Below, one piece after another: positions 9,322 through 34,957 of a DNA stretch of 64,000 nt (the stretch's first letter is position 1; each line of letters opens with the position of its first letter). This DNA is from Gallionella capsiferriformans ES-2 (GTDB lineage: Bacteria; Pseudomonadota; Gammaproteobacteria; Burkholderiales; Gallionellaceae), in the NCBI RefSeq assembly GCF_000145255.1, contig NC_014394.1, positions 1,178,001 through 1,242,000 of the forward strand. Direction: 5' to 3'. The notes under the pieces were generated by a model. That model ran no database searches, was not told the origin of the DNA, and worked only from the letters and a program-made list of their open reading frames with translations. The translations under genes were made by a program, and so were the position numbers.

Positions 9322-9348
9322 GAAGATTTATTTTGTGCGTAGCTCTGT

Positions 9349-9354
9349 TATAAT
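9349..9354 (+). promoter_or_regulatory. -10 box of the tRNA-Pro promoter
   Basis: A perfect TATAAT lies 9 bases before the tRNA 5' end. No good -35 hexamer is visible at 16-18 bases upstream. It could serve the tRNA as a separate promoter. Confidence 0.5.
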
Positions 9355-9363
9355 GCCGAGCTT

Positions 9364-9440
<77 letters not shown>

Positions 9441-9450
9441 AAAAAATCAA

Positions 9451-9480
9451 GGAGTTAGGTTTATAGCCTGACTCCTTTTT
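9451..9480 (+). terminator. Intrinsic terminator after tRNA-Pro
   Basis: GGAGTTAGG (9451-9459) pairs with CCTGACTCC (9467-9475) with a single G-T wobble, and five T follow. It lies just after the tRNA CCA end and ends the whole thrS-to-tRNA unit. Confidence 0.9.
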
Positions 9481-9643
9481 AATTTTTAAATTTTGTGTTC
9501 ATGTGTTTCTGGCAAGATGTCGCCTGTTCACTTTATTTATCAGGCGGGCAGTTTAGAATATTCAGTGCCAATTTGTTATCATGCACGGGTTCAATCTGAA
9601 TCACTCAAAATATGCCGCCCTACCTTAAAACACTGAGTTCCCG

Positions 9644-10396
9644 ATGCGTATTCTGATCAGCAATGACGATGGTTATTTTGCACCGGGACTGGCGTGTCTG
9701 GCGCAGCATCTGGCTAAAATCGCCGAAGTGGTCGTGGTGGCGCCCGAGCGGGATCGCAGCGGTGCGAGCAATTCGCTGACACTGGACCGTCCGTTGAAGT
9801 TGCGCAAAGCGGCCAGTGGTTATTATTACGTTAACGGTACGCCCACTGATTGCGTGCATCTGGCCGTGACCGGCATGCTCGATTATCAGCCGGATATGGT
9901 GGTGTCCGGGATTAACGCCGGTGCGAACATGGGTGACGATACGATTTATTCGGGCACCGTGGCGGCCGCGACCGAAGGCTATTTGCTGGGTATCCCCTCT
10001 ATTGCCATTTCATTAGTGGGAAGCAATCTGGTGCATTTCGAGACGGCGGCCAGAGTCGCCTCTGATCTTGTGCTGCGCTTTGGCGCTCAGACCCATCATG
10101 CGCCTTGGCTGCTCAATGTCAATGTGCCCGATGTGCCCTATGATCAGTTGCAGGGGATCGAAGTCACGAGGCTGGGTAAACGTCACAAGGCGGAACCCGT
10201 CATCAAAGCACTGAGCCCGTCAGGGGAGACCGTGTACTGGGTCGGTGCCGCAGGACGCGCGCAGGATGCGGGCGAGGGGACGGATTTCAATGCCCTGAAT
10301 TTACAGCGTGCATCGCTCACGCCGCTACAGATCGATCTTACTCAATACAGCCAGATAGATGCCGTGCGCAACTGGCTGGGACAGGACTTGGCATGA
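9644..10396 (+). CDS. surE: 5'/3'-nucleotidase SurE
   Basis: SurE is a metal-dependent nucleoside monophosphate phosphatase linked to stationary-phase survival. The 250 residues begin with the metal-binding motif [10 protein letters not shown]. They show SNSLT-type and [10 protein letters not shown] segments and the [10 protein letters not shown] loop, all typical of the family. The stop codon overlaps the pcm start (ATGA), the classic surE-pcm-nlpD arrangement. No obvious ribosome binding site precedes the ATG. Confidence 0.97.
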
Positions 10397-11055
10397 CTAT
10401 GCGGCATAGCGGTATCGGGATGACCTCTGCACGAACACGGCAGCGCATGATAGACCGTCTGCGGGATCAGGGGATCGTCGATGAGGCCGTGCTGGCGGCG
10501 ATGTATGAAGTGCCGCGACACCTGTTTGTCGATGAGGCGCTGGCAAGCCGTGCCTATGACGATGTGTCTTTGCCGATCAACTATGAACAAACGATTTCAC
10601 AGCCTTATATCGTCGCGCGCATGATAGAAGTGCTGCGCGCCTCAACGACGCGTCCGATTAAAAAAGTGCTGGAAATCGGCACCGGTTGCGGGTATCAGGC
10701 GGCTGTACTGGCGCATGTGTTTCCCGAGGTGTACAGCATGGAGCGCATCGAGCCTTTGTATCAGCGCGCTAAAAGTAAATTGCACGATCTTGCGATCAAC
10801 AATGTGAAGTTGAGCTATGCGGACGGCTCGGCGGGTCTGCCTGATGCGGCGCTTTTCGATGGCATCATCATGGCCGCAGCCGCGCCCGTGATGCTGGCGG
10901 CCTTGCGCGAGCAGCTGGCAGTGGGCGGGCGTATGGTGCTGCCGGTCGGCCGGCAGGAGCAGTGGTTGTATCTGGTCGAGCGCGAGGCGCAGGGATTCCG
11001 CGAATCTCGTCTCGAGCCGGTAAAATTTGTACCTCTTTTGATGGGAAAAGCATGA
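10393..11055 (+). CDS. pcm: Protein-L-isoaspartate O-methyltransferase
   Basis: Pcm methylates isoaspartyl residues of aged proteins using S-adenosylmethionine, starting their repair. The 220 residues carry the SAM-binding motif [15 protein letters not shown] and the post-I acidic segment [10 protein letters not shown]. The family-specific region [11 protein letters not shown] precedes them. The start overlaps surE by 4 bases, and the end overlaps the nlpD start by 4 bases, so translation of the three genes is probably coupled. Confidence 0.97.
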
Positions 11056-11972
11056 GCCGTATCGTCGTCGGGTTGTTCGTCTTGAGTGTATTGGCAGGGT
11101 GCGCCTCCAGCGGGCCGCGCGCACCGGTGGTTAAGCGCGGAGTTGCGCCTAAAGCTGCGCCGGTCACCGTTAAATCGACTGAAAAGGACTGGCGTCCGCG
11201 TGTGCATGTTGTGCAAAAAGGCGATACGCTGTACGCCATCGCGTTCAATTACGGACTGGACCCGCGCGAACTGGCAGAGCAGAACGGCATTCAGGATGCC
11301 AACTTGATTAAAGTGGGGCAGCAGATCAATTTGTTTGCAGGTGCAGGTGCAGGTGCAGGTGCAGGTGCAGGTGCAGGTGCAGGTGCAGTCGCGCCGCGTG
11401 CAGTGGTTGAGTCCAAAATATCGCTGGTCAAAGATCAACCCAAAGCCGTGAAATATGCCTACAGCGAGAGCGCGGTGAGTCAGGCCGAAGGCGGCGCGGC
11501 CAAGGCTGAAGCCAAGCCGAAAGCGGATACTAAAGCGGAGTCAAAATCTGAAGTAAAGCCGGATAACAAGGCTGAAGCGGTGGCGGAGACTGATGACGCG
11601 CTCGAATGGAGTATGCCGGCGCAGGGCAAAATCATCGCAGGCTTTTCCGAAGCGGATAACCGCAAGGGCGTCGATTTTTCCGGTAAGCTGGGTCAGTCAG
11701 TTTTTGCCAGTGCGCCGGGCAAAGTCGTGTACAGCGGAAGCGGCTTGCGCGGGTATGGTAAGCTTTTGATTATAAAACATAATAAGACCTATCTTAGCGC
11801 CTATGCGCACAACGATCAGTTGCTGGTCAAGGAAGGCGAAACGGTGACACGTGGTCAGAAAATCGCCGAGATGGGCAATTCCGACAGCGATCAGGTCAAA
11901 TTGCACTTCGAAGTGCGCCGTCTGGGAAAGCCTGTCGATCCGGCAGGTTATCTGGCACTCAACAAACCTTGA
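11052..11972 (+). CDS. nlpD: NlpD-type lipoprotein with LysM and inactive LytM domain
   Basis: NlpD is an outer-membrane lipoprotein that activates the amidase AmiC during septum splitting. The 306 residues start with a lipoprotein signal ending LAGC at about residue 17. A LysM domain follows (HVVQKGDTLYAIAFNYG, about 55-100), then an Ala-Gly linker, a Lys/Ala/Glu-rich stretch and a C-terminal LytM/M23 domain (about 195-305). The usual zinc ligands of M23 peptidases are missing: the segment reads RKGVDF and LHFEVR instead of HxGxD and HxH. This fits an activator rather than an enzyme. The linker is encoded by a hexanucleotide tandem repeat. rpoS, which often follows nlpD, is not next to it. 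Confidence 0.93.
   Translation: MSRIVVGLFVLSVLAGCASSGPRAPVVKRGVAPKAAPVTVKSTEKDWRPRVHVVQKGDTLYAIAFNYGLDPRELAEQNGIQDANLIKVGQQINLFAGAGAGAGAGAGAGAGAVAPRAVVESKISLVKDQPKAVKYAYSESAVSQAEGGAAKAEAKPKADTKAESKSEVKPDNKAEAVAETDDALEWSMPAQGKIIAGFSEADNRKGVDFSGKLGQSVFASAPGKVVYSGSGLRGYGKLLIIKHNKTYLSAYAHNDQLLVKEGETVTRGQKIAEMGNSDSDQVKLHFEVRRLGKPVDPAGYLALNKP
11337..11388 (+). repeat. Hexanucleotide tandem repeat in nlpD (GCAGGT, 8.7 copies)
   Basis: Eight perfect GCAGGT units plus GCAG encode an alternating Ala-Gly run between the LysM domain and the rest of NlpD. A unit is 6 bases, so slippage would change linker length by two residues without breaking the frame. Confidence 0.97.
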
Positions 11973-13938: not shown

Positions 13939-15414
13939 ATGCATCACGGAATTTTTCGAAATGTTCGGGCTTATCTGGTGGCGGCAGCCCTACTCGGCGC
14001 AGCACTGGCGCTGGTGTCAGCCATTTTTTTTACACTGGACAATTTGCCCTGGACCGCCTTTTTGACCGGCATACTGGTGGCGTCCGTGCTGGCTGAAGCG
14101 GCGCGCGCATCGCGCTCTGAATGGGTTTTGATGCGGCGTACTGCGCAGTTGTCGTCATTCAAAGAAAAACTGGAGCAGGAATCGGCGCTTCGTCGCAGCC
14201 TGGAGGAGAAATACGCTGCGTCACTACTGCGTTTACGCCTGATGGACGAAAAAATTTCTACTATGATCGTGCTCATCGATACCGAAGGGCGTTGCGGTTA
14301 TCACAACAGGGCTTTTCGCGAGTGGCTGCATTTGAAGGCAGAATCGATCGAAGGCCGGCCTATCCGCGAGTTGTTCGGGTCGCACGCATATGCCGGTATC
14401 GCGACGGCGGTGCGGCAATCTCTGGACGGACAGTCGCTGCATTATGAGTTTTTTCAAGAAATGCCGGGCGGCGCCTTATACCGGTTGCTGGTGGACCATA
14501 TTCCCCTGTTTGAAGCGGATGGAAAAATTGCCGGATTTTATTTTCTGGCTGAAGACATTACGCAGCGCGGTGACGTGTCGGGTGTAACCGGTGCTAAGAA
14601 GTCATCAGTTGCAGAGCGGGATGTCGACCAGCAAATGTACTTGGACGTTTTTTCCGAGCAGGTCAGCGGCAGGCCGGACGCGGGTAAGCAGTTTATCGCG
14701 GCCATACAGGGGGGCGAGTTTCGCCTGTACTGTCAGTTGATCGCGCCGCTCCCCGTTGATTCGGGCAGGAGCGCGCATTATGAAATACTGATACGCCTGC
14801 TCGAAGAGGAAGGCGGCATGATTCCTCCGGGGGCATTTTTCCCGCTGGCTGAAAAAAATGGATTGATGCCCTATCTGGATCGCTGGGTGGTAGAACATGT
14901 GTTGAGTTGGATTTCGCACCAGCAAAATGTAGATAAGGAAGCCATCTTTTTTATCAATGTGGGCGCTGCGACCATAGGCGATCCGGATTTCTCTGACTTT
15001 TTGCAAGGTGCGCTTAGCGAGACGGGAATGCCGGGCAGCGTGCTGTGTTTTGAGGTGGCTCAGACTGATCTTGCGATACGCAACGAGAGTGTGGCCGAAT
15101 TCGCCCGCCAGGTTAAGCTGTGCGGTTGCCGGGTTGCGTTAAGCGGCTTTGGTCGCGACTCGGTATCGTTCGATCAGATCCGCGGATTTCAGGTGGATTT
15201 TATTAAAATTGACGGCAGCCTGATTTTCAATCTGCTCAGCAATCCGGTTGACCTGGCTAAAGTGGTATCGATCGATCGGGTTGCCAAAAAAATCGGTGTC
15301 AGAACGGTCGCAGAACTGGTTGAAAATGACGATCTCATCGAAAAACTCGGTGAGATCGGTATCGACTTTGCGCAGGGCTTCGGTGTTTCGCGCCCGCGCA
15401 TTCTGGGCGAGTGA
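13939..15414 (+). CDS. Membrane protein with PAS and degenerate EAL domain
   Basis: The 491-residue protein has two N-terminal membrane segments (about 11-32 and 38-54) and a short coiled coil (about 70-95). A PAS domain (about 103-210) and a C-terminal EAL-like domain (about 250-490) follow. The EAL motif reads EIL (282-284). The metal-binding DDFG motif is replaced by LSGFG around 401-405. FIKID and an AELVEN segment remain. With both aspartates lost, c-di-GMP hydrolysis is unlikely, so the domain may only bind c-di-GMP or a partner. A GAGGAG ribosome binding site precedes the ATG. A TATAAT at 13915-13920 could be a -10 box, but no matching -35 is clear. Confidence 0.88.
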   Translation: MHHGIFRNVRAYLVAAALLGAALALVSAIFFTLDNLPWTAFLTGILVASVLAEAARASRSEWVLMRRTAQLSSFKEKLEQESALRRSLEEKYAASLLRLRLMDEKISTMIVLIDTEGRCGYHNRAFREWLHLKAESIEGRPIRELFGSHAYAGIATAVRQSLDGQSLHYEFFQEMPGGALYRLLVDHIPLFEADGKIAGFYFLAEDITQRGDVSGVTGAKKSSVAERDVDQQMYLDVFSEQVSGRPDAGKQFIAAIQGGEFRLYCQLIAPLPVDSGRSAHYEILIRLLEEEGGMIPPGAFFPLAEKNGLMPYLDRWVVEHVLSWISHQQNVDKEAIFFINVGAATIGDPDFSDFLQGALSETGMPGSVLCFEVAQTDLAIRNESVAEFARQVKLCGCRVALSGFGRDSVSFDQIRGFQVDFIKIDGSLIFNLLSNPVDLAKVVSIDRVAKKIGVRTVAELVENDDLIEKLGEIGIDFAQGFGVSRPRILGE

Positions 15415-21811: not shown

Positions 21812-24800
21812 ATGAACCCGATGATGGAATTGACGCTGGCTGACATCATGAACCGGCAGGTGCGCCATGTGTTGCCTGATTGCACGATAGGCGATGCGGC
21901 AAAACAGATGAATGATGCGCGCATGTCTTCATTGCTGGTTATGTCAGATAATACGCCGCTTGGGATTATTACCGAGCGTGATTTATTGCGCCACTTGAGT
22001 GCACATACCAGTCGTCAAACTCCGGTCTCAGAGATCATGAGTCATCCTGTGCTGACAGCTGCGCCGGATACCGGTTTTACCGCGGCCTATTCTCAGGTTC
22101 TCAACCACCATGTTCGCCATCTGGTTGTGGTGGATGGCAAGGGGGGCGTCATCGGTCTTGCCAGCGAAACTGATTTTAGAAATCATCTGGGCGCAGATTT
22201 ACTGCGTAAACTCGACGATTTGCAGGCCGTCATGGATCACAAACTTCCCCAGTTGCGCCCTGAAGATAAACTCAGTGATGCGGTCGCCATGATGTTGCAG
22301 GACCGTACTTCTTATGCGCTGGTGGTCGAAAATGGCCTGCCGCTGGGAATTTTGACCGAGCGGGATATGGCCGGCTTGTTTGTCAATGGCGCCCCTGTTG
22401 AGGGAGTGAGCTTGCGCGAGGTGATGCATTCGCCTGTGCTCACCGTGTCGCATCAAACCCCTGTGTTTGAAATGGCAGGACTGATGCAGGCGAGTCGCTA
22501 TCGCCACCTCGTCGTCGTCGATGATGCCGGACTCGTGCTGGGAATGGTAACGCTGCACAAGCTGATGGCGCGTATCGCGGCGACTGTGATGAATGAGGAG
22601 ACTTTGCGTCGTCAAGAGTCGCTTGAGCACTCTATGCATCATGCCGAATCGCAATTGAGATTGATCGTTAAGACTATTCCCGATCTGATCTGGCTCAAGG
22701 ATGTAGAGGGCGTTTACTTAAGTTGCAACCCGATGTTTGAGCGTTTTTTCGGTGCGATTGAGGCGGATATCGTCGGCAAAACAGATTACGATTTTGTCAG
22801 CCGTGAGCAGGCTGATTTTTTCAGGGCGCATGACCGAGCGGCGATGCTGGCCGATAAACCCAGCATCAACGAAGAGTGGGTGACCTTCGCCGATGACGGG
22901 CACCGTGCGTGCTTAGAGACAACCAAATCACCGATGTTTAATGCGGTGGGTCAACTGATCGGCGTGCTGGGTATTGCGCATGACATTACCGAACGTTTGG
23001 CAGCGGCTAAAAAAATTGAACGGCTGACCCAGCTTTATAATGCCCTCAGTCAGTGCAATCAGGCGATCGTACATTCCAGTTCAGAGGCGGAACTGTTTGC
23101 GCAGATATGTCAAGATGCCGTGCGGTTCGGTGGTTTAAAAATGGCCTGGGTGGGTGTTGTGGATCATGATACGGGGTGGATACGTCCTGTCGCGAGTTAT
23201 GGCGATGGTATGGATTATCTGCAGGGCGCACAGATGTCGGTTGATGAGGCGAGTCCCTTGGGGCGCGGACCGACGGGTACGGCGATACGTGAAAATCGTC
23301 CTGTATGGTGTCAGGACTATCAGCATGATACGGCCACGCGGCCCTGGCATCAGATTGGTGCGTCCTACGGATGGGGCGCTTCGGCAGCCTTGCCTTTACG
23401 TCGCAACGGGGTGGCGATAGGTGCTTTTACACTGTATAACTCGGACATCAACGGTTTTGACGATGAGTCGCGCACCTTGCTCACCGAGATGGCAACGGAC
23501 ATCAGTTTTGCGCTGGATAATTTTGAGCGTGAGACTTTGCGCAAGCGCCTCGAATTGCAAATCGAGAGCGAGCGTTCCGTGCTCGAATCTCTGGCTCGCG
23601 GTGAGTCCTTGCCTGCAGTGCTCAAACAACTGGTTTTGAGCTTTGAGGCGATCTATCCGGGTATGTATTGTTCGGTGCTGTTGTTAAGTGCTGACGGGAA
23701 ACGCCTGCTACATGGTGCTGCAGCCAGTTTGCCTGATGCATATTGTGAGGCGATTAACGGTGCGCTTATCGGTGAAAAGGTAGGCTCGTGCGGTACGGCC
23801 GCTTTTACCTGCAAAACGACAGTGGTGTCTGACATCGCAACCGATCCGCTCTGGCAGGACTACAAGGCACTGGCGCTCGCTCACAATCTTGCCGCCTGCT
23901 GGTCGGTGCCGATACTCTCAACCAAGGGGCAGGTGCTGGGGACTTTTGCGCTTTATTATTCGAAGTCGCGCAGTCCGATGGCTGACGAACTGGCGGCGTT
24001 GGAGCGCGGAGCACATCTGGCGAGTCTTGCGATCGAACGTGCGCAAACCGGTGCCTGGTTGAACAAACTCTCGCAGGCGGTAGAGCAAAGCCCGAATAGT
24101 ATTGTGATCACCGACTTGAATGCCAACATCGAATATGCCAATGATGCGTTTGTTAAAACGACGGGTTACACCCTGCCCGAGGTGATGGGCAAGAATCCAC
24201 GCATCCTGCATTCTGGAAAAACCACGGTTGAGACTTACGCTGCGATGTGGACCCAGTTAAATTCTGGTCAGATGTGGCGGGGAGAACTGATTAACCGTCG
24301 CAAGGACGGTACTGAATACGTTGAGCTGGCGCGAATTTCACCGTTGCGTCACACTGACGGGCGCGTGACGAATTACCTGTCCATCAAGGAAGATATCACC
24401 GAGCAAAAGCAGGTCGAGGCGCGCATCAGGCAACTCGCGCATTTTGACTTGCTGACCGGTTTGCCTAATCAGACGCTGTTAAAGGACAGGGCAGGATTTG
24501 CGATGCAAATGGCACAGCGCAGCGCTCATCATCTGGCTGTCTTGTTTTTGGATATTGATCATTTCAAAAATATCAACGATACGCTGGGGCACCGTATTGG
24601 CGATGAGTTGCTGGTTCATCTGGCAAAACGGATGAAACTGCTGTTGCGGGATGAGGATACGTTGTCCCGTTTTGGCGGCGATGAATTTATTCTGGTGTTG
24701 CCGGATACGGATGCGGATGGTGCGGCGCATGTGGCCGAAAAAATACTCGAGACCGTTGCGAAGACCTGTTACATCGAGCAGCACGAGCTGGTTGTAACCC

Positions 24801-25726
24801 CCTCAATCGGTATTGCCATGTACCCTAGTGATGGCATGGATTTCGATAAACTGTACCAAAGCGCCGATGTGGCCATGTATCGCGCCAAGCAGGACGGGCG
24901 CAACAATTTCAGATTCTTTACCTCTGAGATGCAGGCGCGTTCGGCCAGAAGATTGCTGCTGGAAAATGCCTTGCGACAAGCTTTATCGCGTAATCAGTTT
25001 GAATTGCACTATCAGCCGCAGATTTCCATGCAGGACGGAAAAATTGTCGGTGCTGAAGCCTTGTTGCGCTGGTATCACCCGGAGCTGGGGAGCATTTCTC
25101 CGGCCGAATTTATTCCTGTCGCTGAGGAAAGCGGTTTAATTCTGAGCATAGGAGAGTGGGTATTGCGCACCGCGGTGCAGCAGGTTAAGCGCTGGCAGGA
25201 TGCGGGGCATCCACCGGTTACGGTTGCCATCAATTTGTCTGCGGTGCAGTTTCGTCAGGCACGCTTGTCTGAACTTGTCATGCAGATACTCCATGAGGCT
25301 AATTTGGCGCCGCATTGGATTGAGCTGGAACTGACCGAGAGTGTTGCGATGGACAACCCGTTGGTCGCCATCGGGGTGATGAATGATTTGCACGGGTGCG
25401 GTATTCGCATGTCGATTGATGATTTTGGTACCGGCTATTCCAGCTTGAGTTACCTTAGAAAATTCAAGGTCAACAAGCTCAAGATTGACCAGTCCTTTGT
25501 GCGCGATTTGGCTGACGATATCGAAAGCCGGGCCATTGTGACCGCCATTATTACACTGGCCAGCAGTATGGGATTTCAGACCATCGCCGAAGGGGTGGAG
25601 ACGGCCGGGCAGTTGGCATTTTTGCGTTTGCAAGGCTGTAATGAGGTTCAGGGGTATTATTTCAGTCGGCCGCTTACAGTTGCTTTGTTCGAGGCGTTTG
25701 TGCTCGGACACGCTGAAATTCCCTGA
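21812..25726 (+). CDS. CBS-PAS-GAF-GGDEF-EAL c-di-GMP signalling protein
   Basis: This 1304-residue protein has no membrane segments. In order it has four CBS domains as two pairs (about 1-125 and 140-255), PAS (about 280-395), GAF (about 405-575), a second GAF (about 590-745), PAS (about 755-870), GGDEF (about 885-1045, motif GGDEF at 955-959) and EAL (about 1060-1300, motif EALLRW at 1082). The EAL domain keeps ELTES, DDFGTGYSS, KIDQSF and AEGVE, so both output domains look capable of activity. CBS pairs usually bind adenine nucleotides, so the protein may couple energy state or redox/ligand signals to c-di-GMP. It is transcribed towards the giant coiled-coil gene, with a 111-bp gap. Confidence 0.93.
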   Translation: MNPMMELTLADIMNRQVRHVLPDCTIGDAAKQMNDARMSSLLVMSDNTPLGIITERDLLRHLSAHTSRQTPVSEIMSHPVLTAAPDTGFTAAYSQVLNHHVRHLVVVDGKGGVIGLASETDFRNHLGADLLRKLDDLQAVMDHKLPQLRPEDKLSDAVAMMLQDRTSYALVVENGLPLGILTERDMAGLFVNGAPVEGVSLREVMHSPVLTVSHQTPVFEMAGLMQASRYRHLVVVDDAGLVLGMVTLHKLMARIAATVMNEETLRRQESLEHSMHHAESQLRLIVKTIPDLIWLKDVEGVYLSCNPMFERFFGAIEADIVGKTDYDFVSREQADFFRAHDRAAMLADKPSINEEWVTFADDGHRACLETTKSPMFNAVGQLIGVLGIAHDITERLAAAKKIERLTQLYNALSQCNQAIVHSSSEAELFAQICQDAVRFGGLKMAWVGVVDHDTGWIRPVASYGDGMDYLQGAQMSVDEASPLGRGPTGTAIRENRPVWCQDYQHDTATRPWHQIGASYGWGASAALPLRRNGVAIGAFTLYNSDINGFDDESRTLLTEMATDISFALDNFERETLRKRLELQIESERSVLESLARGESLPAVLKQLVLSFEAIYPGMYCSVLLLSADGKRLLHGAAASLPDAYCEAINGALIGEKVGSCGTAAFTCKTTVVSDIATDPLWQDYKALALAHNLAACWSVPILSTKGQVLGTFALYYSKSRSPMADELAALERGAHLASLAIERAQTGAWLNKLSQAVEQSPNSIVITDLNANIEYANDAFVKTTGYTLPEVMGKNPRILHSGKTTVETYAAMWTQLNSGQMWRGELINRRKDGTEYVELARISPLRHTDGRVTNYLSIKEDITEQKQVEARIRQLAHFDLLTGLPNQTLLKDRAGFAMQMAQRSAHHLAVLFLDIDHFKNINDTLGHRIGDELLVHLAKRMKLLLRDEDTLSRFGGDEFILVLPDTDADGAAHVAEKILETVAKTCYIEQHELVVTPSIGIAMYPSDGMDFDKLYQSADVAMYRAKQDGRNNFRFFTSEMQARSARRLLLENALRQALSRNQFELHYQPQISMQDGKIVGAEALLRWYHPELGSISPAEFIPVAEESGLILSIGEWVLRTAVQQVKRWQDAGHPPVTVAINLSAVQFRQARLSELVMQILHEANLAPHWIELELTESVAMDNPLVAIGVMNDLHGCGIRMSIDDFGTGYSSLSYLRKFKVNKLKIDQSFVRDLADDIESRAIVTAIITLASSMGFQTIAEGVETAGQLAFLRLQGCNEVQGYYFSRPLTVALFEAFVLGHAEIP

Positions 25727-25837: not shown

Positions 25838-28800
25838 ATGTCATCCACTTTTAAATTTCGTTTGGTCGACAACGACAGCGAAGAATATCTCGCTCAGTCT
25901 CAGGCGATACAGGAAGCCCGCGCGCATCAGGAAGCCGAGATGCAGGCGGGTTTTACGGCCCAAGCGCGAGCACGCGCCGAAGCACATGGACGCGCCATCG
26001 CTCAGGCGCGCGTTCGTATGGAAATGGAGTTGATTGCTCAGCTCGAAGCGAAGTGCCAGGATGAGACCCGTTTGTCGGAAGTCGCGCAGGAACGGCTCGA
26101 AGTTGAAAAGCAGTTATCCCATGAATTGCGCGAAAAACTGCTCGCTGAAATGCGTTTGCAGGAAGAAAATCAGGCCAGATTGCGCGCTGAAATTCAGGCG
26201 CAGGAAGCGTTGTCGCAACGCGTCGAATCCGAACAAATCGCCCGTGCGGCCGCAGAAAATAAAATTCGCGCCGAAAAGGAGTTGCAGGCTTTAATTTCCA
26301 GGCAATATCAGGCGGAACAGAATTCCTTGCAGCGTGCCGAGGCGGAAATTCGCGCGCTTCGGGTGGAGACCGAAAAGCTTGAGGCTCAAGTTGAGCAAGA
26401 AGTCGGTGAACGCATGCGCGCTGAGCAGTTGCAACATGCGCAGGCGGCTGAAAAGCTGGAAATTGAAACGCGCTTGAATGAGGCTGCTCGCTTACGCGTT
26501 GAAAACGAAGCAGAGGAGCTGCGACTGGCACGGGTACGCGCCGATATCGATCAGCATGAAATGGCGCTGATTGCCAAGCGTCTCGACGCCGAGCGGGGTG
26601 CGGCAAAAGCGGCAGAAAACCGCAGCAGACTGGAGCAGCAGGCCGCAACGCTTGCACAGGAAAAAATCACCACCGACCACACGATTGCACGCGTGCTGCA
26701 GGAGAAAGTCAGTCAGGAGCAGAAGGTTGTCACGCTGCTTGCCGCCAAGCTCGATACCGAACAGATTGCCAAGGAAGCTTTGCAGGCCAGAGTCAGTGCC
26801 GAGTCGCTGGCGCTGGCGGAGGTCGAAGCTAAGCTCAAAGCCGAACGCGATGCAGAACAGGCGGCGCTGCTGCGCGCCAGTACTGAACAATTAGCGATTG
26901 TCGCGGCGAATCAGCGCAAACAGGCTGAAGAGCAAATGCGTCTGGAAGCGGAAGCCCGCGTACAAACCGAGCGTCAGGCGTATAAGGCCGCTCGCCAGCA
27001 TACACAGGCGGAACTCGATGCTCGCAGCGAAGCGGAACGCAAACTGCGGGCTGAGGAAGAGGTAGCCCGTTTGCTGCAGGAACAAGCAGACGTCGATAAA
27101 AAGCTGGCCGACCAGCAGGAGCAAACGCAGGCAAGTCTGTTGCAGGCGGTGCGCGATGCGAATGAAAGGCTCAATAGTGAAAGTTTAGCCTCACAGGCTG
27201 CGGCACAAAAGCTCGCCACGGGCCGTGATCAGCTGGTATTTGCCCAGCAACGCGCCGAAACCGAAATCGAGGCGGCTCAGGCGCTTGAATTGCAGTTGCA
27301 AACCGAAGCGGCTGCCATTGCGATTGCCAGCGAACGGCTGCTCGCCGCAGAAAAGGCGCAACAGGCCGCAGAAGAAAAAGCACGCATTGAGAGCGAGTTG
27401 CTGGAAACAGCACGGCAGTGTGAGCAGGCTGAACGCTTGGCTGAACAGCAGTTGCGCGAAAAATATCAGTTACAGAATGCGGCATTGCAGGCGGCTCAAT
27501 TGCGCGCAGAAGCGCTGGCGCGCGAAAAATTGCTGGTCGAGCAAAACTTACAGGCCGAGCATAAGCTGATTGAAACTGCGGCGGAAAAAGCGCAGGCCGC
27601 GGAACTTGCGAATGAAGCGGCCGTGCGGCGCGCACAAATTGAACTCGAAGCGCTGCATACGGCGAAGATTCAGTTGGAAACAGAAACGCGAGCGATTGCT
27701 CAAATCGAAGCGACGATGGCCGCGCAGTTGCAGGCAACTGAAGCGGACAATCTGCGCATCGAAATGGAGGCGCGTGCACAATCGGCCGCCCTGACGACGC
27801 TGGAATTGAACGAACAGGCGAATCGCGATGCCGGGGCGCAGGAACTGGCTGCGGTGCGCGCCCTGAATATTGCCCGGTTGCGCGCTGAAACGGAAGCGCG
27901 GGCGTTGAAGCTCAAAGAAGATCTGATTCGCGCGGAGGCAATGGCGACGGCGGCGTTGAAGAAGCAGATGGATGATGCACAGTTGCTGCATGAGGAAACT
28001 GTGCAGCGCGCCGAGCATATGGTGGCGCGTCGTATTCAGGAAGAGCAGCGTGCCACAGCGCTTGAAGAAGAGCGTATTCGCAGCGAAGCTCGTGCGTCTG
28101 TCGCCGCAGCGCAACATGCCCGCGCCGAGCGTGCGGCTGTTGAGGCGGCCATCGAGCGCGAGCAGATCGCGCTGCAACTGGTCGGGCAGGAACAGTTGCG
28201 CGAGGCCGAAGAGCGTCAGTTGCAGTCACAGATGGTGTTACGTGCGACCTTAGAGGCTGAAGCGGTTGCCGCCTTGCAGGCAAGGCTCGCCGCCGAGCAA
28301 CAGGCGTGCGAGGCTGAGCAGGAAAAAATAGCGGCAGCGCAACAGGCGACGTCAATTGCTTTAGCGCATGAAGCGGCACAGCGTCAGTTGGCGTTGGCTC
28401 AGCAGGAAAAAAACAGCAGTGAAGCGGCCGCCGTTGCGGCTATGAATCATCTGGAGGCGTTGGCGGCTACGGCAAGGCAGGTGGCCCAAGAGCGCGAGCA
28501 GATGGCGCAGCGTTTGGCCGAGCGCGAACAGCAGCGACTGGCCGAAGAGCGCGAATTAAGTGTGCAACTGGAAAAACGGGTTGACCTTGAAATGGAGGCC
28601 GCCGAGTCTGTCAAGGTGCGCCTTGCCACTGAGCAGTTGGCCTGCGAGGTACAGCAGGAAAAAATTAAGGCGGAGCAGCAGGCGCGCGAGTTAGCGGCTG
28701 CGCGTGAGGCTTCTGAGCGTGAACTGCTGGCGGTTGAGCAGGCGTTACTGCGCAGCGAAGAATCGGCTGTGCAGATCATGCAGGAGCGCACCCGCGTGGC

Positions 28801-31800
28801 AGAAGAAGCCCGGGTTGCGGCACAGCAACGTGAGCTGGCTGCGCAGCTTCTGGTTGAGCAGGAACAACAGCGGCTGGCTGACGAGCTTAGATTGCAGGCT
28901 GAAGTCGAACGGCGTGCAGCACTGGAAGCGGAAGTGGCTGTTGCAGTGGCGGCGCGACTGGCAGCTGAAGAGCAGGCAACCGATGCCGAACAGCTCAAAA
29001 TTCTTGCCGAGCATCAGGTACGCGCATTGGCATTGGAGCATGAAGCGGCACAGGGGCTGCTGATTGAGGCCGCGCAGGAAAAGATGCGTCTGGAAGAGCA
29101 AGTCGTTGCGGCTATCAATGGGCAGGTGTCCCAAGCTCAGCAGTTGAATGAGCAGGAGGCCGCACGACTGGCAGGTGAACTTCAATTGCAGGAACAAGGT
29201 GAGCTGCGTGTTGCGCTGGAGGCCGCTGCCGCTTCTGCCGTATTGGCACGCTTGGCTGCCGAAGAAAAGGCCTGTGAGCTCGAACGGGAGAAAATTTCGA
29301 TAGCCCAGCTGGCGCGCAATCGTGCACTGGAAGCTGAAGCGGCGCATGCGCGGGCAATCGATGCTGAACAGGAACAGATGCGCTGCGAGGATTTGGCGCT
29401 TGCCGCAGCTAAGTTACATGTTCAGACAGCAGAAGAGGCCGCGCTGAGCGCTCGTGCGCGCGAGCAGCTAGCGTTGCAGATGCAGGAGCAGGAGCTGCTG
29501 CATCTGCAGGCTGAGCAACAACTGCAGACGGAAGTCGCGCAGTGTCTTGCGTTGGAGGTGGAAGCGGTTGCGGCCTTGCAAGCGCGCCTTGCATCCGAGC
29601 AGCGTGCGGGTGAGCTGGAGCAGGAAAAAATTAATGCACAGCAGCAGGCGCACCAACTGGCTGTGGCGCGTGAAGCGGCAGAGCGTCAGGCTATTGCCGT
29701 TGAGCAGGATGCAATCCGTATTGAAGCATCTGCGATCGTCGCAGCCCAGCAGCAGCGTGAACTGGCCGAGCAGGCCAGACAAGTCGCGTATGAACGCGAA
29801 CAATTGGCATTGCAATTGCGCGAGCAGGAACAGCAGCGCTTATCCCATGAGCAGCAGTTGCAGGCGCAACTGGAGCAGCATGCGGCGCTTGAAGTTGTAG
29901 CTTTTGAAGCGCTGCAGGCGCGACTGGCGGCGCAAACCCTGGCCTGTGAAGCTGAACAGCTCAAGGTCGTGTTAGAGCAACAGGCGCAGCAATTGGCACG
30001 CGATAATGAAGCGGCATTGCGCCATGCGGCGGATTTGGAACAGGAGAAAATCAATCGTGAAGCAGCGGCTTTAGCCGCCACGCAGCAACATATTCAGATA
30101 TCGGAACAGGCCAGGCTTGCGGCGATCGATCGCGAACAGCTGGAGCATCAGCTGGCCGAGCAAGCCGCACGCCAGTTAGAGCTCGAACGCATTTTGCAGG
30201 AGCGGGCTGCATTGCAGGCGTCTTTGGCTGATGCTGCCGAGCGTGAGACGCAGGTCCGGATTGACGCGGAGCAGCGTGCATGCGAGGCGCAACAGCTCCA
30301 AATTGCGGTCCAGCAGCAGGCGCAACAGATGGCGCTCGAACATGATGCAGTCATGCGTCATGCGGCGGATTCCGAACAGCAAAAAATCGCCAGTCTGGCG
30401 CTCGCTTTGACAGCTGAGCAGCAGCGCATTGAGATTGCAGAGCAGGCACGTTTGGCTAGTCTTGCGCGTGCGGAGTTGGAAAATAAGCTTGCCGGGCAGG
30501 CAGCGCAACAACTCGAACTAGAGCGTAATCTGCAGGCTCAACAGGAACTCAGTTTGTCACTGGCTGAGGCCGCAGCGCGCGAGACTGAGAGCAGGATCGA
30601 TGCAGAACAGAGAGCAGCTGATGCAGAACGGCACAAAATCGCCGCTGAGCAGCAGGCACAGCAAGTTGCCTGCGAACAGGAAGCCGCATTGCAGCAGGCA
30701 TTGGCTGCGGAGCAGCAGAAAATGGTTGCTGACGCACTCGCTTTGACCGCAACACAGCAGCGCATTGAAATGACAGAGCAGGCTAGACTTGCGGGCGTTG
30801 AACGCGAAGCGCTGGAACAACAGCTGGCAGCGGATGTCGCACGTCAGCTGGCGCTCGAACAGGATTTGCAAGCGGGTATCGCGCAGCAGCGAGCACTGGC
30901 ACTCGCACTTGAGTGCGAATCAGCGGCCAGAATTGAGGCGCTGCAGCGGGCGAACGAGATTGAGCAGAGCAAAATTGCAGCCGAGCAGGAGGCGCTGCGC
31001 TTGGCCCATGCGCATGAGCAGGTCAGGCGTCGCTTGGTCGCGGCTGAGCAGGAAAAAAATCGCCGTGAGGAATTGGCCATACGGGCGGTCGGTGAACATG
31101 AGCAGTTGATCCAGACGATTACGCAGGCGGCCATCGAGCGTGAGCAACAGGCGCAGCAGTTGCAGGAGAAAGAGTCGCTGCGACTGGCTCATGAGCGTGA
31201 GTTGCAGGTATTGCTCGCTGAGCATATTGAGAAGGAAGCCGCCGCTGCAGAGGCCGTACGTGCTGAACAATTGGCGCTGCAATTGGCTTGTGCTGCCGAG
31301 CAGGAGAAAATTGAAACGCTCAATCAGGCTGTACAGTTGGCGCAGACGCGTGTTGCACATGAGCGTGAGGCGCTTCTCGTTGAACAGGAGCAGGTTCGTT
31401 GCGAGTCTGCTTTGATGGCTGCTGTTGAAGAGAGAGCGAAGATTGCAGAGGCTGCCATTGAATCGGTGAAGGCGCGCGAGCAGATAGAGAACCAGCTCGC
31501 GCGTGAAGCTCAGTTGCAAATCGAGCGTGACCGGATGCTGGAGGAGCGTTTGGCCTATAAACAAACCATGGCGGAAAATGTTGCTAAGTCACGGCAGGAT
31601 CGCATTGACGCCGAGCAGCGTTTGATCGCGGGCGAGCAGCACAAAGCAGAGGTTGAGCGGCAGGCAATGATGGATGCGGAGGAGCGTCTGAACTTATTGC
31701 GCATGCAGGCGGAGGAAGCGGCCGAGATCGCTGCGCAAATCAGCGCACAGCGTGAGGCGCTGCAGCAGCGGGCAGTGGAGGCGGAGCGGGCTAAAGCTCA

Positions 31801-32386
31801 GGCTGAACAGCAGGCGCTGCAAGAGGATGCTGAGCGACTGGCGTTAATTGAGCAGGCAGCGCAAATTGCTCAGCAACGGCAACAGGAGCAGCAGCAGTTG
31901 CGGCTAGAGCAGCAGTCGCGCCTTGAGGCTGAAGCGCTGCTCTTGTCGGAGACAGCGCAGCGAGTGGCGGCGGAACGCGAGGCGTTTGAGGCGGTGGCAG
32001 TGCACATGACGGCTGAGCAGCGTGCAACGGTTGAAGCGCAGGAAAAGATCGCGCTTGAAAAACAGGCAGCCGTCCATGCGCAGCAGTTAGCCGAATATGA
32101 TGAACAAAAAAATATGGCCTTGCGCAGCTATGTCGAGCAAACTCGCATCGAGTTGGAGCCATACTACTCAAAGGCTCAGTTACAAAAAAGAAGGCTGTTT
32201 GTTAAGGTGGGTGTGTTGGCCGGAGGGGGCTTGCTTGCAGCACTGCTGGGCTGGCAGTTATTGAATACTCGCAATGCGACGCCAGCCAGGCTTGTCAAAG
32301 CTGTGCCACCCAAAGCGTTTGAGGCTGATGAAGCATCGCTTCAATTAGGCTCACTTAAACTCTCCAAACAATTACAGCAGAAATAA
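25838..32386 (+). CDS. Giant tail-anchored coiled-coil protein with 112-residue repeats
   Basis: I do not recognise a named family for this 2182-residue protein. Residues from about 20 to 2107 are an uninterrupted Ala/Glu/Gln/Leu/Arg-rich coiled coil; the first proline is residue 2108. Residues 816-1921 are ten consecutive repeat units, nine of 112 residues (16 heptads) and one of 98. A less regular eleventh unit follows. A single membrane segment lies at about 2120-2142, preceded by KRR, leaving a 40-residue tail. By the positive-inside rule, the coil would be cytoplasmic and the tail periplasmic. If fully extended as one helix it could be about 0.3 micrometre long. It is alone in its strand unit, with AAGGT before the ATG. 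A scaffold, cytoskeletal or spacer role is inference. Spectrin-like or SMC-like readings lack any globular domain. Confidence 0.9.
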   Translation: MSSTFKFRLVDNDSEEYLAQSQAIQEARAHQEAEMQAGFTAQARARAEAHGRAIAQARVRMEMELIAQLEAKCQDETRLSEVAQERLEVEKQLSHELREKLLAEMRLQEENQARLRAEIQAQEALSQRVESEQIARAAAENKIRAEKELQALISRQYQAEQNSLQRAEAEIRALRVETEKLEAQVEQEVGERMRAEQLQHAQAAEKLEIETRLNEAARLRVENEAEELRLARVRADIDQHEMALIAKRLDAERGAAKAAENRSRLEQQAATLAQEKITTDHTIARVLQEKVSQEQKVVTLLAAKLDTEQIAKEALQARVSAESLALAEVEAKLKAERDAEQAALLRASTEQLAIVAANQRKQAEEQMRLEAEARVQTERQAYKAARQHTQAELDARSEAERKLRAEEEVARLLQEQADVDKKLADQQEQTQASLLQAVRDANERLNSESLASQAAAQKLATGRDQLVFAQQRAETEIEAAQALELQLQTEAAAIAIASERLLAAEKAQQAAEEKARIESELLETARQCEQAERLAEQQLREKYQLQNAALQAAQLRAEALAREKLLVEQNLQAEHKLIETAAEKAQAAELANEAAVRRAQIELEALHTAKIQLETETRAIAQIEATMAAQLQATEADNLRIEMEARAQSAALTTLELNEQANRDAGAQELAAVRALNIARLRAETEARALKLKEDLIRAEAMATAALKKQMDDAQLLHEETVQRAEHMVARRIQEEQRATALEEERIRSEARASVAAAQHARAERAAVEAAIEREQIALQLVGQEQLREAEERQLQSQMVLRATLEAEAVAALQARLAAEQQACEAEQEKIAAAQQATSIALAHEAAQRQLALAQQEKNSSEAAAVAAMNHLEALAATARQVAQEREQMAQRLAEREQQRLAEERELSVQLEKRVDLEMEAAESVKVRLATEQLACEVQQEKIKAEQQARELAAAREASERELLAVEQALLRSEESAVQIMQERTRVAEEARVAAQQRELAAQLLVEQEQQRLADELRLQAEVERRAALEAEVAVAVAARLAAEEQATDAEQLKILAEHQVRALALEHEAAQGLLIEAAQEKMRLEEQVVAAINGQVSQAQQLNEQEAARLAGELQLQEQGELRVALEAAAASAVLARLAAEEKACELEREKISIAQLARNRALEAEAAHARAIDAEQEQMRCEDLALAAAKLHVQTAEEAALSARAREQLALQMQEQELLHLQAEQQLQTEVAQCLALEVEAVAALQARLASEQRAGELEQEKINAQQQAHQLAVAREAAERQAIAVEQDAIRIEASAIVAAQQQRELAEQARQVAYEREQLALQLREQEQQRLSHEQQLQAQLEQHAALEVVAFEALQARLAAQTLACEAEQLKVVLEQQAQQLARDNEAALRHAADLEQEKINREAAALAATQQHIQISEQARLAAIDREQLEHQLAEQAARQLELERILQERAALQASLADAAERETQVRIDAEQRACEAQQLQIAVQQQAQQMALEHDAVMRHAADSEQQKIASLALALTAEQQRIEIAEQARLASLARAELENKLAGQAAQQLELERNLQAQQELSLSLAEAAARETESRIDAEQRAADAERHKIAAEQQAQQVACEQEAALQQALAAEQQKMVADALALTATQQRIEMTEQARLAGVEREALEQQLAADVARQLALEQDLQAGIAQQRALALALECESAARIEALQRANEIEQSKIAAEQEALRLAHAHEQVRRRLVAAEQEKNRREELAIRAVGEHEQLIQTITQAAIEREQQAQQLQEKESLRLAHERELQVLLAEHIEKEAAAAEAVRAEQLALQLACAAEQEKIETLNQAVQLAQTRVAHEREALLVEQEQVRCESALMAAVEERAKIAEAAIESVKAREQIENQLAREAQLQIERDRMLEERLAYKQTMAENVAKSRQDRIDAEQRLIAGEQHKAEVERQAMMDAEERLNLLRMQAEEAAEIAAQISAQREALQQRAVEAERAKAQAEQQALQEDAERLALIEQAAQIAQQRQQEQQQLRLEQQSRLEAEALLLSETAQRVAAEREAFEAVAVHMTAEQRATVEAQEKIALEKQAAVHAQQLAEYDEQKNMALRSYVEQTRIELEPYYSKAQLQKRRLFVKVGVLAGGGLLAALLGWQLLNTRNATPARLVKAVPPKAFEADEASLQLGSLKLSKQLQQK
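28283..31600 (+). repeat. Array of ten 336-bp (112-codon) repeat units
   Basis: Unit starts are at 28283, 28619, 28955, 29249, 29585, 29921, 30257, 30593, 30929 and 31265. Each begins with a sequence like RLAAEQQACE (RIDAEQRA in later units) followed by a variant of EQEKIAAEQQ. All are 336 bp except the third, which is 294 bp. The unit length is 16 heptads. DNA identity between units is only partial, so the duplication is old or the units have diverged. Units 6-8 look most alike. Confidence 0.95.
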
Positions 32387-32415
32387 CGGCGACCACAGGC
32401 CGCGTTATATTTTTT
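32383..32415 (+). terminator. Probable terminator of the coiled-coil gene
   Basis: ATAAC (32383-32387) plus GGC pair with GCC plus GTTAT (32404-32408), with a 2-base bulge, and six T follow. It lies in the short gap between the two convergent genes and overlaps the end of glnD. Confidence 0.55.
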
Positions 32416-34957
32416 CCAGGAGTTCGTTAAGAAAAGCGCTGCTGATGACAGGATCATCCAGCATTTGACCGCTGATCCAGAACACGTCTTCTGCCCGGCT
32501 GCCTAGTGTGTTGATCTTGGCACGGTGCAGTCGCAGGTCGTGCCGGTCCAAAATTTGGGCGATGCGCGCAAGCAACCCCGGCCTGTCTCCTGCGATCAGG
32601 GACAGGATATGCATGCCACGTTTGTCCTGCTCAAGATTTACTTTCGTATGGATGGGGAAGTGTTTAAGCTGACGACTCATTCGTCCGCTTGCAATAGTCT
32701 CAACCGGTTTTCCCTGTACGATTTTTTCAGTCAGTTCGAATTCGATGTAGTGCATCAGGTCGCGGTAGTTCAGGTCGCTGCGACAGACTTCCATAATCTG
32801 AAAGCTATTGAGCGCGTAGCCATGCTGAGTGGTGTGTATTTTTGCTTCTACGATGGTGTAATTCAGTCGTGAGAAAAACGCGCAAATGCGCGCGAACAGC
32901 CAGCGTTGATCGGGACAGTACACCATAACCTGCAAGCCTGTTCCTGCGCGGCTCAGCCGGGTTTTAACGATCGGGGTGGTGGTGTTGGCCCGAAAGGCCA
33001 GCAAGCGGCTGTGCCAGGCGATTTCCTGTGCTTCGTGATCGAGAAAATAGCTGTCGTCCAGTTGCGCCCAAAGCAGTTGGTAGGAAGCGGGGGTGAGCGC
33101 GTATAAATTCAGCGTTGCGGCCGCCTGTTCGCGTATTGCATCTAAGTGATTGGTCGCAGCCCCTTCTTTCATGTAGCGCCGTGTCAGCTGGAACAGGTCT
33201 TCCATCAGCTTTGCTTTCCATGCGTTCCAGACCTTGGGGCTGGTCCCTTTTACGTCGGCAACCGTCAGCAGATACAGCGCGACCAGATAGCGGTCATTTT
33301 TGATCTGTTCGGCAAAAGCTGCGATGACTTCGGGGTCAGCTAAATCCTGTTTTTGCGCGACAGCGGATAAGGTGAGATGTTGAGCCACCAGCCAGACGAT
33401 CAAATCGCTATCATCGCGGCTGAGCTGATGATGGCTGCAAAACAGCCGTGCATCCTTTTTCCCCAGTTGGGCATGATCGCCCCCGCGTCCCTTGGCAATG
33501 TCGTGGAACAGGCCTGCGATATACAGCACTTCAGGACGGGCAAATTCCCCCATCAGCTTATTGCACAGCGGCAACTCCTGCTGGTGCTTGGGCAGCGCGA
33601 AGCGGCGCAGGTTGCGCACCACCATCAGGATGTGCTCATCGACGGTGTAGACGTGAAACAAGTCATGTTGCATCTGGCCGATGATGCGACCGAAAGCGGG
33701 AAGGTAGCGCCCCAGTATGCCGTATTGTCGCATGCGGCGCAGTGCGTGGTTAACGCCTTCGGGTTGGCGTAAGATTTCCATGAAACGTGCGCGGTTCAGC
33801 GGATCGCGGCGAAATTTTGCATCGATATGAAATTGCGCACGCCACAAAGCGCGCAGCGTTGTTGCCGTAATGTCAGTTAGTTCAGGATTTTTTTGCAGGA
33901 TTAAAAATAGCTCGAAAATGGCCTCGGGCGTATGTTCAAACAGCTGCTCGTCCCGTATTTCCAGCAGATCGCCGATGATGCGAAACCGCTCGTTGAGTGC
34001 GTGACGCGGGGGGGTTACACGGAACAGGTGATCGTGCAGATTTTGCAGCACGATGGTATTGAATTGGCGCACCGCCAGTTTGGTGCGATAGTAGCGCTGC
34101 ATCAGGTGTTCGCTGGCGCGTCGGTTCAGCGACGTTTCAATGCCCATCTGACTTGCCAGTGATGTTTGAAAGTCGAACAACAGCCGATCTTCTCGGCGGC
34201 GGGCGAGATAGTGCAGTCGGGTGCGTAGGGTTTGCAGCAGTGCATCATGGCGTGCAATCTGGCGTGCTTCGGACTTGCTGATCAGTCCGGCTTCGGCCAG
34301 TTCAGGCCAGTGCGTGCCAAGTCCGGCAGCGCGGCTGATCCATGTCACCGTTTGCAAATCTCGCAAGCCGCCCGGACTCTCCTTGAGATTGGGTTCCAGA
34401 TTGAAGTCGGTATCGTCAAAGCGTACGTGACGCAGCTTTTGTTCATGTAACTTGGCGGTAAAAAACGCCAGCGGGTCGAGATGCTGTTGTACCTTGTTGC
34501 ACAGACTGTCGAACAGCAGTGCATTGCCGCATAAAAGGCGTGCTTCGAGCAAATTCGTTTGTACCGTAATGTCGCCTGATTCGACGAGGCATTGTGCGAT
34601 AGTGCGTATGCTGTGACCGACCTCGAGTCCAATATCCCACAGCAGTGCGATCAGTTCGTGCAGTTGCTGTTGCAGTGCGTCATCAGGCTCTTGATCGAGC
34701 AGTATCAGCAGATCAATATCGGATTTCGGGTACAGCTCGCCTCTGCCGTAGCCGCCGACGGCAATCAGTGTATGCGTGGGCGGCATGGCTAATTGTTGCC
34801 AGATCATGCGCAAGTAATGATCAATGAGTTTGCTGTGTGCGCTGAGCAGACGTGCGGCTTTGCCCTGCGCTAAAAAATCCTGCTCAAGCAGGCCGCGGTC
34901 ACGGCGCAGGGATTCGCGCAGTGCACTGATGTCGGGTTGGGGTGCTGCAACTTTCAT
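32405..34957 (-). CDS. glnD: PII uridylyltransferase / uridylyl-removing enzyme GlnD
   Basis: GlnD senses glutamine and adds or removes UMP on PII proteins to control nitrogen metabolism. The 850 residues hold an N-terminal nucleotidyltransferase domain with GGYGRGELYPKSDIDLL (about 68-84). The middle HD domain carries the LFHDIAKGRGGDH metal site, and two ACT domains lie at the C-terminus (about 680-760 and 785-850). All key motifs are present. The start directly abuts the stop of map, so the two are probably one transcript. Confidence 0.97.
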   Translation of the reverse strand: MKVAAPQPDISALRESLRRDRGLLEQDFLAQGKAARLLSAHSKLIDHYLRMIWQQLAMPPTHTLIAVGGYGRGELYPKSDIDLLILLDQEPDDALQQQLHELIALLWDIGLEVGHSIRTIAQCLVESGDITVQTNLLEARLLCGNALLFDSLCNKVQQHLDPLAFFTAKLHEQKLRHVRFDDTDFNLEPNLKESPGGLRDLQTVTWISRAAGLGTHWPELAEAGLISKSEARQIARHDALLQTLRTRLHYLARRREDRLLFDFQTSLASQMGIETSLNRRASEHLMQRYYRTKLAVRQFNTIVLQNLHDHLFRVTPPRHALNERFRIIGDLLEIRDEQLFEHTPEAIFELFLILQKNPELTDITATTLRALWRAQFHIDAKFRRDPLNRARFMEILRQPEGVNHALRRMRQYGILGRYLPAFGRIIGQMQHDLFHVYTVDEHILMVVRNLRRFALPKHQQELPLCNKLMGEFARPEVLYIAGLFHDIAKGRGGDHAQLGKKDARLFCSHHQLSRDDSDLIVWLVAQHLTLSAVAQKQDLADPEVIAAFAEQIKNDRYLVALYLLTVADVKGTSPKVWNAWKAKLMEDLFQLTRRYMKEGAATNHLDAIREQAAATLNLYALTPASYQLLWAQLDDSYFLDHEAQEIAWHSRLLAFRANTTTPIVKTRLSRAGTGLQVMVYCPDQRWLFARICAFFSRLNYTIVEAKIHTTQHGYALNSFQIMEVCRSDLNYRDLMHYIEFELTEKIVQGKPVETIASGRMSRQLKHFPIHTKVNLEQDKRGMHILSLIAGDRPGLLARIAQILDRHDLRLHRAKINTLGSRAEDVFWISGQMLDDPVISSAFLNELLEKI

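Follow-up and report, generated by a model that had tools for sequence, protein, structure and literature searches.

A giant helical protein of Gallionellaceae whose gene tracks flagella, probably a component of the swimming machinery not recognised before

What is the function of a protein of 2182 residues whose earliest proline is residue 2108? The gene for such a protein (hereafter, rod gene and rod protein) lies at 25838-32386 on the forward strand of a 64,000-nucleotide stretch of the Gallionella capsiferriformans ES-2 genome (hereafter, the window; NC_014394.1, positions 1,178,001 to 1,242,000). A preliminary description of the locus had read the product as a tail-anchored coiled-coil with 112-residue repeats, perhaps a filament, spacer or cytoskeletal element. 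The iron-oxidising Gallionella ES-2 is described in PMC3770913 as curved and motile, with contiguous flagellar gene clusters. We report that the rod gene tracks flagella across Gallionellaceae. From its frequent absence in genomes without flagella and from the presence of distant relatives in flagellar gene clusters, we conclude that the rod protein probably belongs to the swimming machinery, as a part that has gone unrecognised.

Results

The rod gene occurs mostly where flagella occur

Flagella were scored in 158 Gallionellaceae genomes as the presence of FliM (112 of 158) or FlhA (115 of 158), and the rod gene by a profile of its conserved head, the first 62 residues (89 of 158). Gene and flagella were found together in 87 genomes, the gene without flagella in 2, flagella without the gene in 31, and neither in 38 (Fisher 3.3e-15). 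The corresponding counts were 43, 2, 6 and 25 in the 76 genomes of the window's genus (2.6e-12), and 27, 1, 4 and 15 in the 47 genomes that are at least 90% complete (7e-8). Whole-protein matches, present in 94 genomes including five with a body match that lacks the head (G043, G053, G067, G119 and G129; G labels are genomes of the survey, and g, f and L labels its genera, families and loci), gave 90, 4, 28 and 36 when used for scoring instead (7e-14), and 44, 4, 5 and 23 within the genus. Two control genes were scored in the 76 genomes of the genus. OprB, present in 54, and nifH, present in 11 and so of little power, both gave P = 1 against flagella, and P = 0.73 and 0.42, respectively, in the 47 most complete genomes. 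PilM (155 of 158) and FimV (146 of 158) were too invariant to be used as controls.

Shared ancestry was considered using a GyrA tree of frame-selected rows from 69 of the 76 genus genomes, the seven without a usable GyrA being excluded and the bootstrap not having settled. Flagella differ in nine independent contrasts that the tree supports. On average, the rod gene changed in the same direction in 6.9 of these, in the opposite direction in 0.2 and not at all in 1.9 (sign test, median 0.016, range 0.008-0.22). The association between the rod gene and flagella is well supported.

The two genomes that carry the head and have neither FliM nor FlhA are G033 (73% complete) and G084 (99% complete), and in the latter the head is damaged by a 16-residue deletion and by a change of RLV to RLD. 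G084 is close kin of the window genome, and so is another genome without FliM or FlhA, G067 (99% complete), which has a headless remnant of 729 aa with 25 prolines (L215:3265-5451, reverse strand). The remnant follows a gene 70% identical to the upstream neighbour in the window, and the GyrA of G067 is 95% identical to that of the window genome.

Most relatives in two other families lie beside flagellar genes

The head profile matched 34 of 399 genomes of the order, 10 in Gallionellaceae and 24 in other families, and the contexts of all 24 (9-20 kb per locus) were searched with flagellar proteins, the queries being named by Pfam. Relatives in two families, f42 and f16, adjoin flagellar genes in 15 of 16 cases. 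All six f42 proteins are short (243-250 aa) and consist of the head, then an AIEADN motif, then a hydrophobic segment 4-17 residues from the C-terminus. Their gene clusters all include FlhA, a fliA-like sigma factor, flagellin, a ParA-type ATPase and a GGDEF gene, with FlhB in four of the six stretches. Nine of the ten f16 proteins have 614-697 aa and are encoded beside fliR, together with FliL, FliM and FliP, the exception being the one from G336. In three further families (f8, f38 and f19) the protein has a hydrophobic segment at its end, together with the C-terminal motif described below.

In f42 the ParA-type ATPase gene directly precedes the short rod gene (L139:3102-3899, reverse strand; L141:7763-8554, forward strand), and an FlhG-like gene, named by eye, is present further upstream in addition to it. 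The ATPase and the short rod may form a positioning system. Long helical proteins of other families with no flagellar genes nearby have the end motifs LKMDEEL, LRLAYEM and MQLSYEL (L228, L145 and L134, respectively), and the sharing of this motif hints at a shared partner.

Two conserved ends define the family, with a rod of variable length between them

Translation confirmed the open reading frame, and a genome-wide search gave one match to the rod protein in the window's own genome. Its parts are as follows.

25838..32386, forward strand: rod gene, ATG start, single terminal stop, 2182 aa
25838..25885, forward strand: residues 1-16, conserved peptide MSxxxKIRLVxNDSEE, a candidate docking motif from its conservation (low predicted local distance difference test score, pLDDT; no predicted helix)
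25886..26023, forward strand: residues 17-62, helix start and remainder of the head, AESQAIQEARAR..AQARARAEAHARAI, conserved and present in other families
26024..28282, forward strand: residues 63-815, core rod common to shorter relatives, 14-residue period with alternation
27674..27775, forward strand: residues 613-646, mid-rod motif AIxxIExRMxxxLRAIEADNxRI, also in the short relatives from flagellar clusters
28283..31600, forward strand: residues 816-1921, ten units in tandem, one of 98 aa and the others of 112 aa, from lag identity
31601..32158, forward strand: residues 1922-2107, proline-free rod ahead of the membrane segment
32195..32251, forward strand: residues 2120-2138, presumed membrane segment from hydropathy (AlphaFold draws no helix)
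32354..32374, forward strand: residues 2173-2179, LKLSKQL, conserved C-terminal motif from a pattern match, presumed periplasmic

Prolines are found at residues 2108, 2149, 2157 and 2158 only, and the proline-free run of 2107 residues is as first described. The ten-unit array was likewise recovered: identity at lag 112 is 0.41 within residues 816-1921 (mean 0.128, sd 0.008, when residues 61-2107 are shuffled), and units picked by eye start at 816, 928, 1040, 1138, 1250, 1362, 1474, 1586, 1698 and 1810. Consecutive 112-aa segments, with starts from 816 to 1712, are 27-57% identical to the next segment. The protein is composed of 22% Ala, 15.9% Glu, 14% Gln, 12% Leu, 8.9% Arg and 3.4% Lys, with about 30% charged residues. 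Searches of Pfam (also at E 10), NCBIfam, PHROGs, plasmids and the sequences of the PDB gave no match to it, in line with the earlier statement that no named bacterial family is known to have this layout.

A protein is tail-anchored in the strict sense when a very short tail follows its membrane segment. The rod protein has a single C-terminal hydrophobic segment (mean Kyte-Doolittle 1.98; best elsewhere 1.39), as the preliminary description held, followed by 44 residues, so the strict term probably does not apply. The segment would span the membrane by its hydropathy, and charge balance, which is ambiguous in the window protein, would put the N-terminus inside the cell.

We gathered 53 distinct proteins, of which 44 count as full length at a cut-off of 800 aa (range 805-2184 aa, window protein included). 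Most of 53 loci bear the names Gallionella, Gallionellales, Sideroxydans, Ferrigenium and Sideroxyarcus, and the rest only broader ones (Nitrosomonadales, Proteobacteria and, in one case, Gammaproteobacteria); the full-length members, where placed, belong to Gallionellaceae. In an alignment of the head (A1), 17 columns are invariant across 21 rows. At the other end, an LKLSxxL-type motif, the pattern of which was composed after inspection of the tails, is present in 43 of the 44 full-length members (0.027 per shuffled tail), and 30 of the 44 exceed a Kyte-Doolittle value of 1.6 within the last 160 aa. A strict pattern for the mid-rod motif matched 23 of the 47 proteins that have at least 600 aa. 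The 112-residue period, proposed earlier as something to look for in relatives, is the top lag in all eight full-length members of at least 1405 aa (window protein among these) and in just two of 36 shorter ones (L046 and L117); other multiples of 14, for example 28, 42, 56 and 84, are common among the shorter ones. Given that the long array is confined to the longest members, it does not define the family; judged by sequence conservation, the two ends do, and the rod between them varies in length.

How the rod varies was profiled from 402 gaps in chosen pairs among the 44 proteins (45-98.5% identity, similar lengths, good flanks), roughly collapsed into 110 events. Multiples of 14 account for 47 of the events (about 8 expected), and 56 are not multiples of 7. 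One pair with 92% identity differs by a single 112-aa gap. Where residues 61-740 carry substitutions, the hydrophobic or polar class was retained more often than in shuffles, and this held for each of the 43 proteins compared with the window protein (z 1.4 to 6.6). One genome (G015) has tandem rod genes with identical starts (L043:6760-8796 and 8943-11960, both forward strand), the first encoding 679 aa with an end unlike the usual C-terminus, and the second a full copy of 1006 aa.

The rod has a 14-residue period and is predicted to be helical

The rod had been read as continuous heptads. A heptad signal is indeed present: averaged over 98-residue stretches, the period-3.5 signal is 2.8 in residues 17-815 and 1.9 in residues 816-2107, similar to the coil of SMC from the same genome (1.9-2.1). 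The period-2 signal, averaged in the same way, is stronger (12.6 and 3.9, respectively), whereas the SMC coil has essentially none (0.02-0.46). Coherent power for Ala plus hydrophobic residues in residues 1-815 is 99.8 at period 2.0 and 7.9 at period 3.5 (shuffle 99.9th percentile 11.3). The alternation, clearest in this region, is weaker in the 112-residue repeats (residues 816-1921), where power at period 2.0 (38.6) is about equal to that at period 4.67 (36.4), with 15.5 at period 3.5. Period 2.0, the seventh harmonic of 14, is the largest component in 42 of the 44 full-length members; the two exceptions (L038 and L004) differ from other members by odd-length gaps.

Charges follow an intrahelical pattern. 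Arg or Lys followed by Glu or Asp at i+4 occurs 60 times in residues 1-815 (21 expected, z 10.1) and is also enriched in residues 816-1921 (z 5.1), and like charges at i+4 are depleted (z -5.2 and -5.4, respectively). The opposite charges at g-e' (i+5) that link coiled-coil strands are not enriched in residues 1-815 (z 0.0 and -1.5) and weakly so in residues 816-1921 (z 2.8 and 1.4). The basic unit appears to be 14 residues and not 7, and the dominant pattern is a two-residue alternation of Ala or hydrophobic with polar residues, together with i+4 charge pairs. A plain heptad coil is weakened by the dominance of period 2 and the charge pairing, with the heptad signal still at SMC strength.

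Two AlphaFold models, of residues 1-815 and 1421-2182 (mean pLDDT 72 each; predicted template modelling score 0.21-0.24), gave very long helices, not many short ones. The first has helices at 17-209, 262-427, 446-587 and 602-814, and the second has four of 109-195 residues each, with lengths of 109-213 residues over both. Residues 1-16 and the last 69, the presumed membrane segment among them, are left unstructured. The breaks between helices were modelled at low confidence and may be artefacts; the rod would thus be one very long helix or a series of helices. Beta structure, which the alternation could suggest, was rejected because AlphaFold predicts long helices and the amino-acid composition is that of a helix. 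With a rise of 0.15 nm for each residue, 2107 helical residues would reach about 0.31 micrometre, close to the 0.3 micrometre first estimated.

The neighbouring genes of the rod gene are not constant

In the window the rod gene is flanked by the following genes.

21812..25726, forward strand: CBS-PAS-GAF-GGDEF-EAL protein of cyclic di-GMP (c-di-GMP) signalling, upstream neighbour, 111 bp before the rod gene
32405..34957, reverse strand: glnD, convergent neighbour

A related EAL gene lies directly upstream in 7 of 21 loci and beyond a 181-aa open reading frame in one more, and glnD is near the rod gene in 11 of 21. Operon logic with either was considered, and because neither neighbour is constant across the 21 loci, no function was drawn from them. 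The window encodes three EAL-domain c-di-GMP proteins (13939-15414, 21812-25726 and 57374-60415), the last two also with GGDEF. In one genome (G010), the region upstream of the rod gene codes for another repetitive helical protein (L046:383-919, forward strand), of 179 aa and with repeats seen by eye.

Discussion

A proposed membrane-tethered scaffold for the flagellar system

Of the preliminary description, the long and probably membrane-tethered helical rod stands; the roles it offered are revised toward motility by the co-occurrence with flagella and by the context of the relatives. We consider the chances about even that the rod protein is a membrane-tethered helical scaffold working with the flagellar system, likely at the flagellated pole. 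A tethered arm or scaffold is proposed because the ends are conserved, the body is a stretchable helix and the gene tracks flagella. A very long alpha-helical rod would lie in the cytoplasm, held in the inner membrane by a single C-terminal helix, beyond which a short tail would extend into the periplasm and finish with the conserved LKLSxxL-type peptide. Peptide and membrane helix would anchor one end in the envelope, and the unstructured, conserved N-terminal peptide, up to 0.3 micrometre away, would capture a flagellar, chemotaxis or c-di-GMP partner. The polar position, the capture and the kind of partner are what we infer from this arrangement.

Several observations weigh against this scaffold. 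Among the flagellated genomes, 31 have no head-bearing gene, 17 of them in two genera (all three of g5 and 14 of g11), and the rod gene is therefore not required for flagella as such; three of the 31 (G043, G119 and G129) still show a body match. G084, with no FliM or FlhA, retains the remaining protein including the C-terminal motif. The control genes with usable variation were just two, and the tree restricted to genomes at least 90% complete yields six contrasts (4.6 in the same direction versus 0.4 in the opposite one, median P 0.125), too small a number. In Gallionellaceae the rod gene lies outside the flagellar cluster, 84 kb from fliM in the window genome, and sigma-28-like (FliA) promoters show no clear excess: scored with a consensus and set against simple shuffling, 3 of 53 upstream regions came out above the best of their 30 shuffles (about 1.7 expected). 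Eight of the relatives (three in f8, two in f48, and one each in f38, f24 and f19) had no searched flagellar gene within their 9-20 kb. All ten f16 proteins lack the C-terminal membrane segment and the AIEADN motif. In profile comparison the head matched f16 at 97.4% and a control rod segment did so at 89.6%, versus 96.3% and 2.2% for f42; kinship with f42 is thus specific, and that with f16 is less sure.

Other readings of the rod

A cell-shape cytoskeleton is unlikely in our estimate, and is retained because these bacteria are curved and coiled-coil proteins can affect shape and motility. The rod protein would then be a membrane-attached filament that curves the cell, like crescentin, H. pylori Ccrp and CcfM, a long bacterial helical rod of the crescentin-like kind, and curvature would be useful mainly to swimmers. 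A proline-free rod of 2107 residues is compatible with a filament. According to PMC3770913, the cells of Gallionella ES-2 are bean-shaped or curved and those of Sideroxydans ES-1 are helical rods; PMC4460556 names crescentin and the H. pylori coiled-coil-rich proteins, and a 2011 title cited there has the latter controlling shape and motility. A shape role does not, however, predict that 15 of 16 f42 and f16 relatives lie beside flagellar genes, and intermediate-filament proteins are not known to have a membrane helix or a conserved periplasmic peptide. The link to motility could also run through gathered signals alone, with the rod as a scaffold for chemotaxis or c-di-GMP signalling. The GGDEF/EAL genes upstream in some loci and the GGDEF gene and ParA-type ATPase near the short rod gene in all six f42 loci are consistent with this; with no upstream c-di-GMP gene in 13 of 21 loci, we find it improbable.

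Two further readings concern the length of the rod. It could be a spacer or ruler, its length fixing a distance such as that from the inner membrane to a cytoplasmic or polar body, as might be expected from conserved ends around a body that brings the total to 805-2184 aa, indel events in multiples of 14, a pair differing by one 112-aa gap, and strong Arg/Lys-to-Glu pairing at i+4 (z 10), of the kind found in stiff single helices. We hold this to be quite improbable: we know of no structure that scales with rod length, length changes more than twofold within one genus, against a tightly set distance, and 56 of the 110 indel events are not multiples of 7. Finally, the rod could be low-complexity sequence grown by slippage or unequal exchange, little more than a linker between the ends. 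The alternation and the 14-residue period could descend from a short ancestral repeat, and repeat number is variable. Yet the hydrophobic or polar class is retained in 43 of 43 comparisons, frames of at least 805 aa stay open in 44 members, and slippage leaves the flagellar association unexplained, which makes this reading very improbable.

A possible wider family with a natural length series

Returning to the tethered scaffold, we tentatively extend it, as a possibility that we would not favour as a whole, to an undescribed betaproteobacterial family. This would comprise a short tail-anchored flagellar-cluster protein, encoded beside a ParA-type ATPase and a diguanylate cyclase, and, in the iron-oxidising Gallionellaceae, a membrane-tethered counterpart up to ninefold longer, reaching as far as 0.3 micrometre, written in a 14-residue non-heptad code and acting as a stiff arm that sets the reach from envelope to pole. 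Among openly licensed papers, searches on Gallionella coiled-coils, polar landmarks and Nitrosomonas fliR gave no description of the rod family, which is weak evidence of absence. If the proposal is true, a component of motility or of pole organisation has gone unrecognised in flagellated Betaproteobacteria; its head and its C-terminal peptide, both small, allow it to be traced despite a freely stretched body, and giant repeat proteins annotated as hypothetical gain a testable function. The proteins offer a natural length series, from 243 to 2184 aa, for asking if rod length matters, and a helical protein that alternates with a 14-residue period is not something that coiled-coil theory obviously predicts.

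Comparison with known systems

The resemblance proposed here to TipN or HubP is one of role and not of sequence. TipN is a polar landmark of Caulobacter and, as described in PMC4460556, a membrane protein with a large cytoplasmic coiled-coil that couples polarity to other machinery; with its predicted long helices and presumed membrane segment, the rod protein may be similar in layout. TipN is polytopic in the same account, whereas the rod protein has a single hydrophobic segment, near its C-terminus, and a conserved peptide at its end. HubP/FimV is presented in PMC8789113 as a large single-pass inner-membrane polar organiser of flagellum, chemotaxis and chromosome segregation, with a periplasmic LysM domain, acidic cytosolic repeats and a TPR end. 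The FimV core, LysM and TPR domains have no NCBIfam or Pfam match in the rod protein, and since a separate FimV-core gene is present in 146 of 158 genomes, the window's included, the rod protein is no replacement for FimV.

Crescentin and the coiled-coil-rich proteins are long bacterial helical rods too, some tied to shape and motility according to PMC4460556. The rod protein differs from them in its 14-residue alternation beside the heptad signal, its C-terminal hydrophobic segment and the absence of a Pfam match. The SMC coil encoded in this genome has a similar period-3.5 signal; the rod protein differs from it in its period-2 signal. Single alpha-helix domains (PMC5347031, PMC4183817) have a dense i to i+4 salt-bridge pattern, as the rod protein does, and either could be a stiff spacer; they are rich in Arg, Glu and Lys, whereas the rod protein has 22% Ala, 14% Gln and 12% Leu, with about 30% charged residues.

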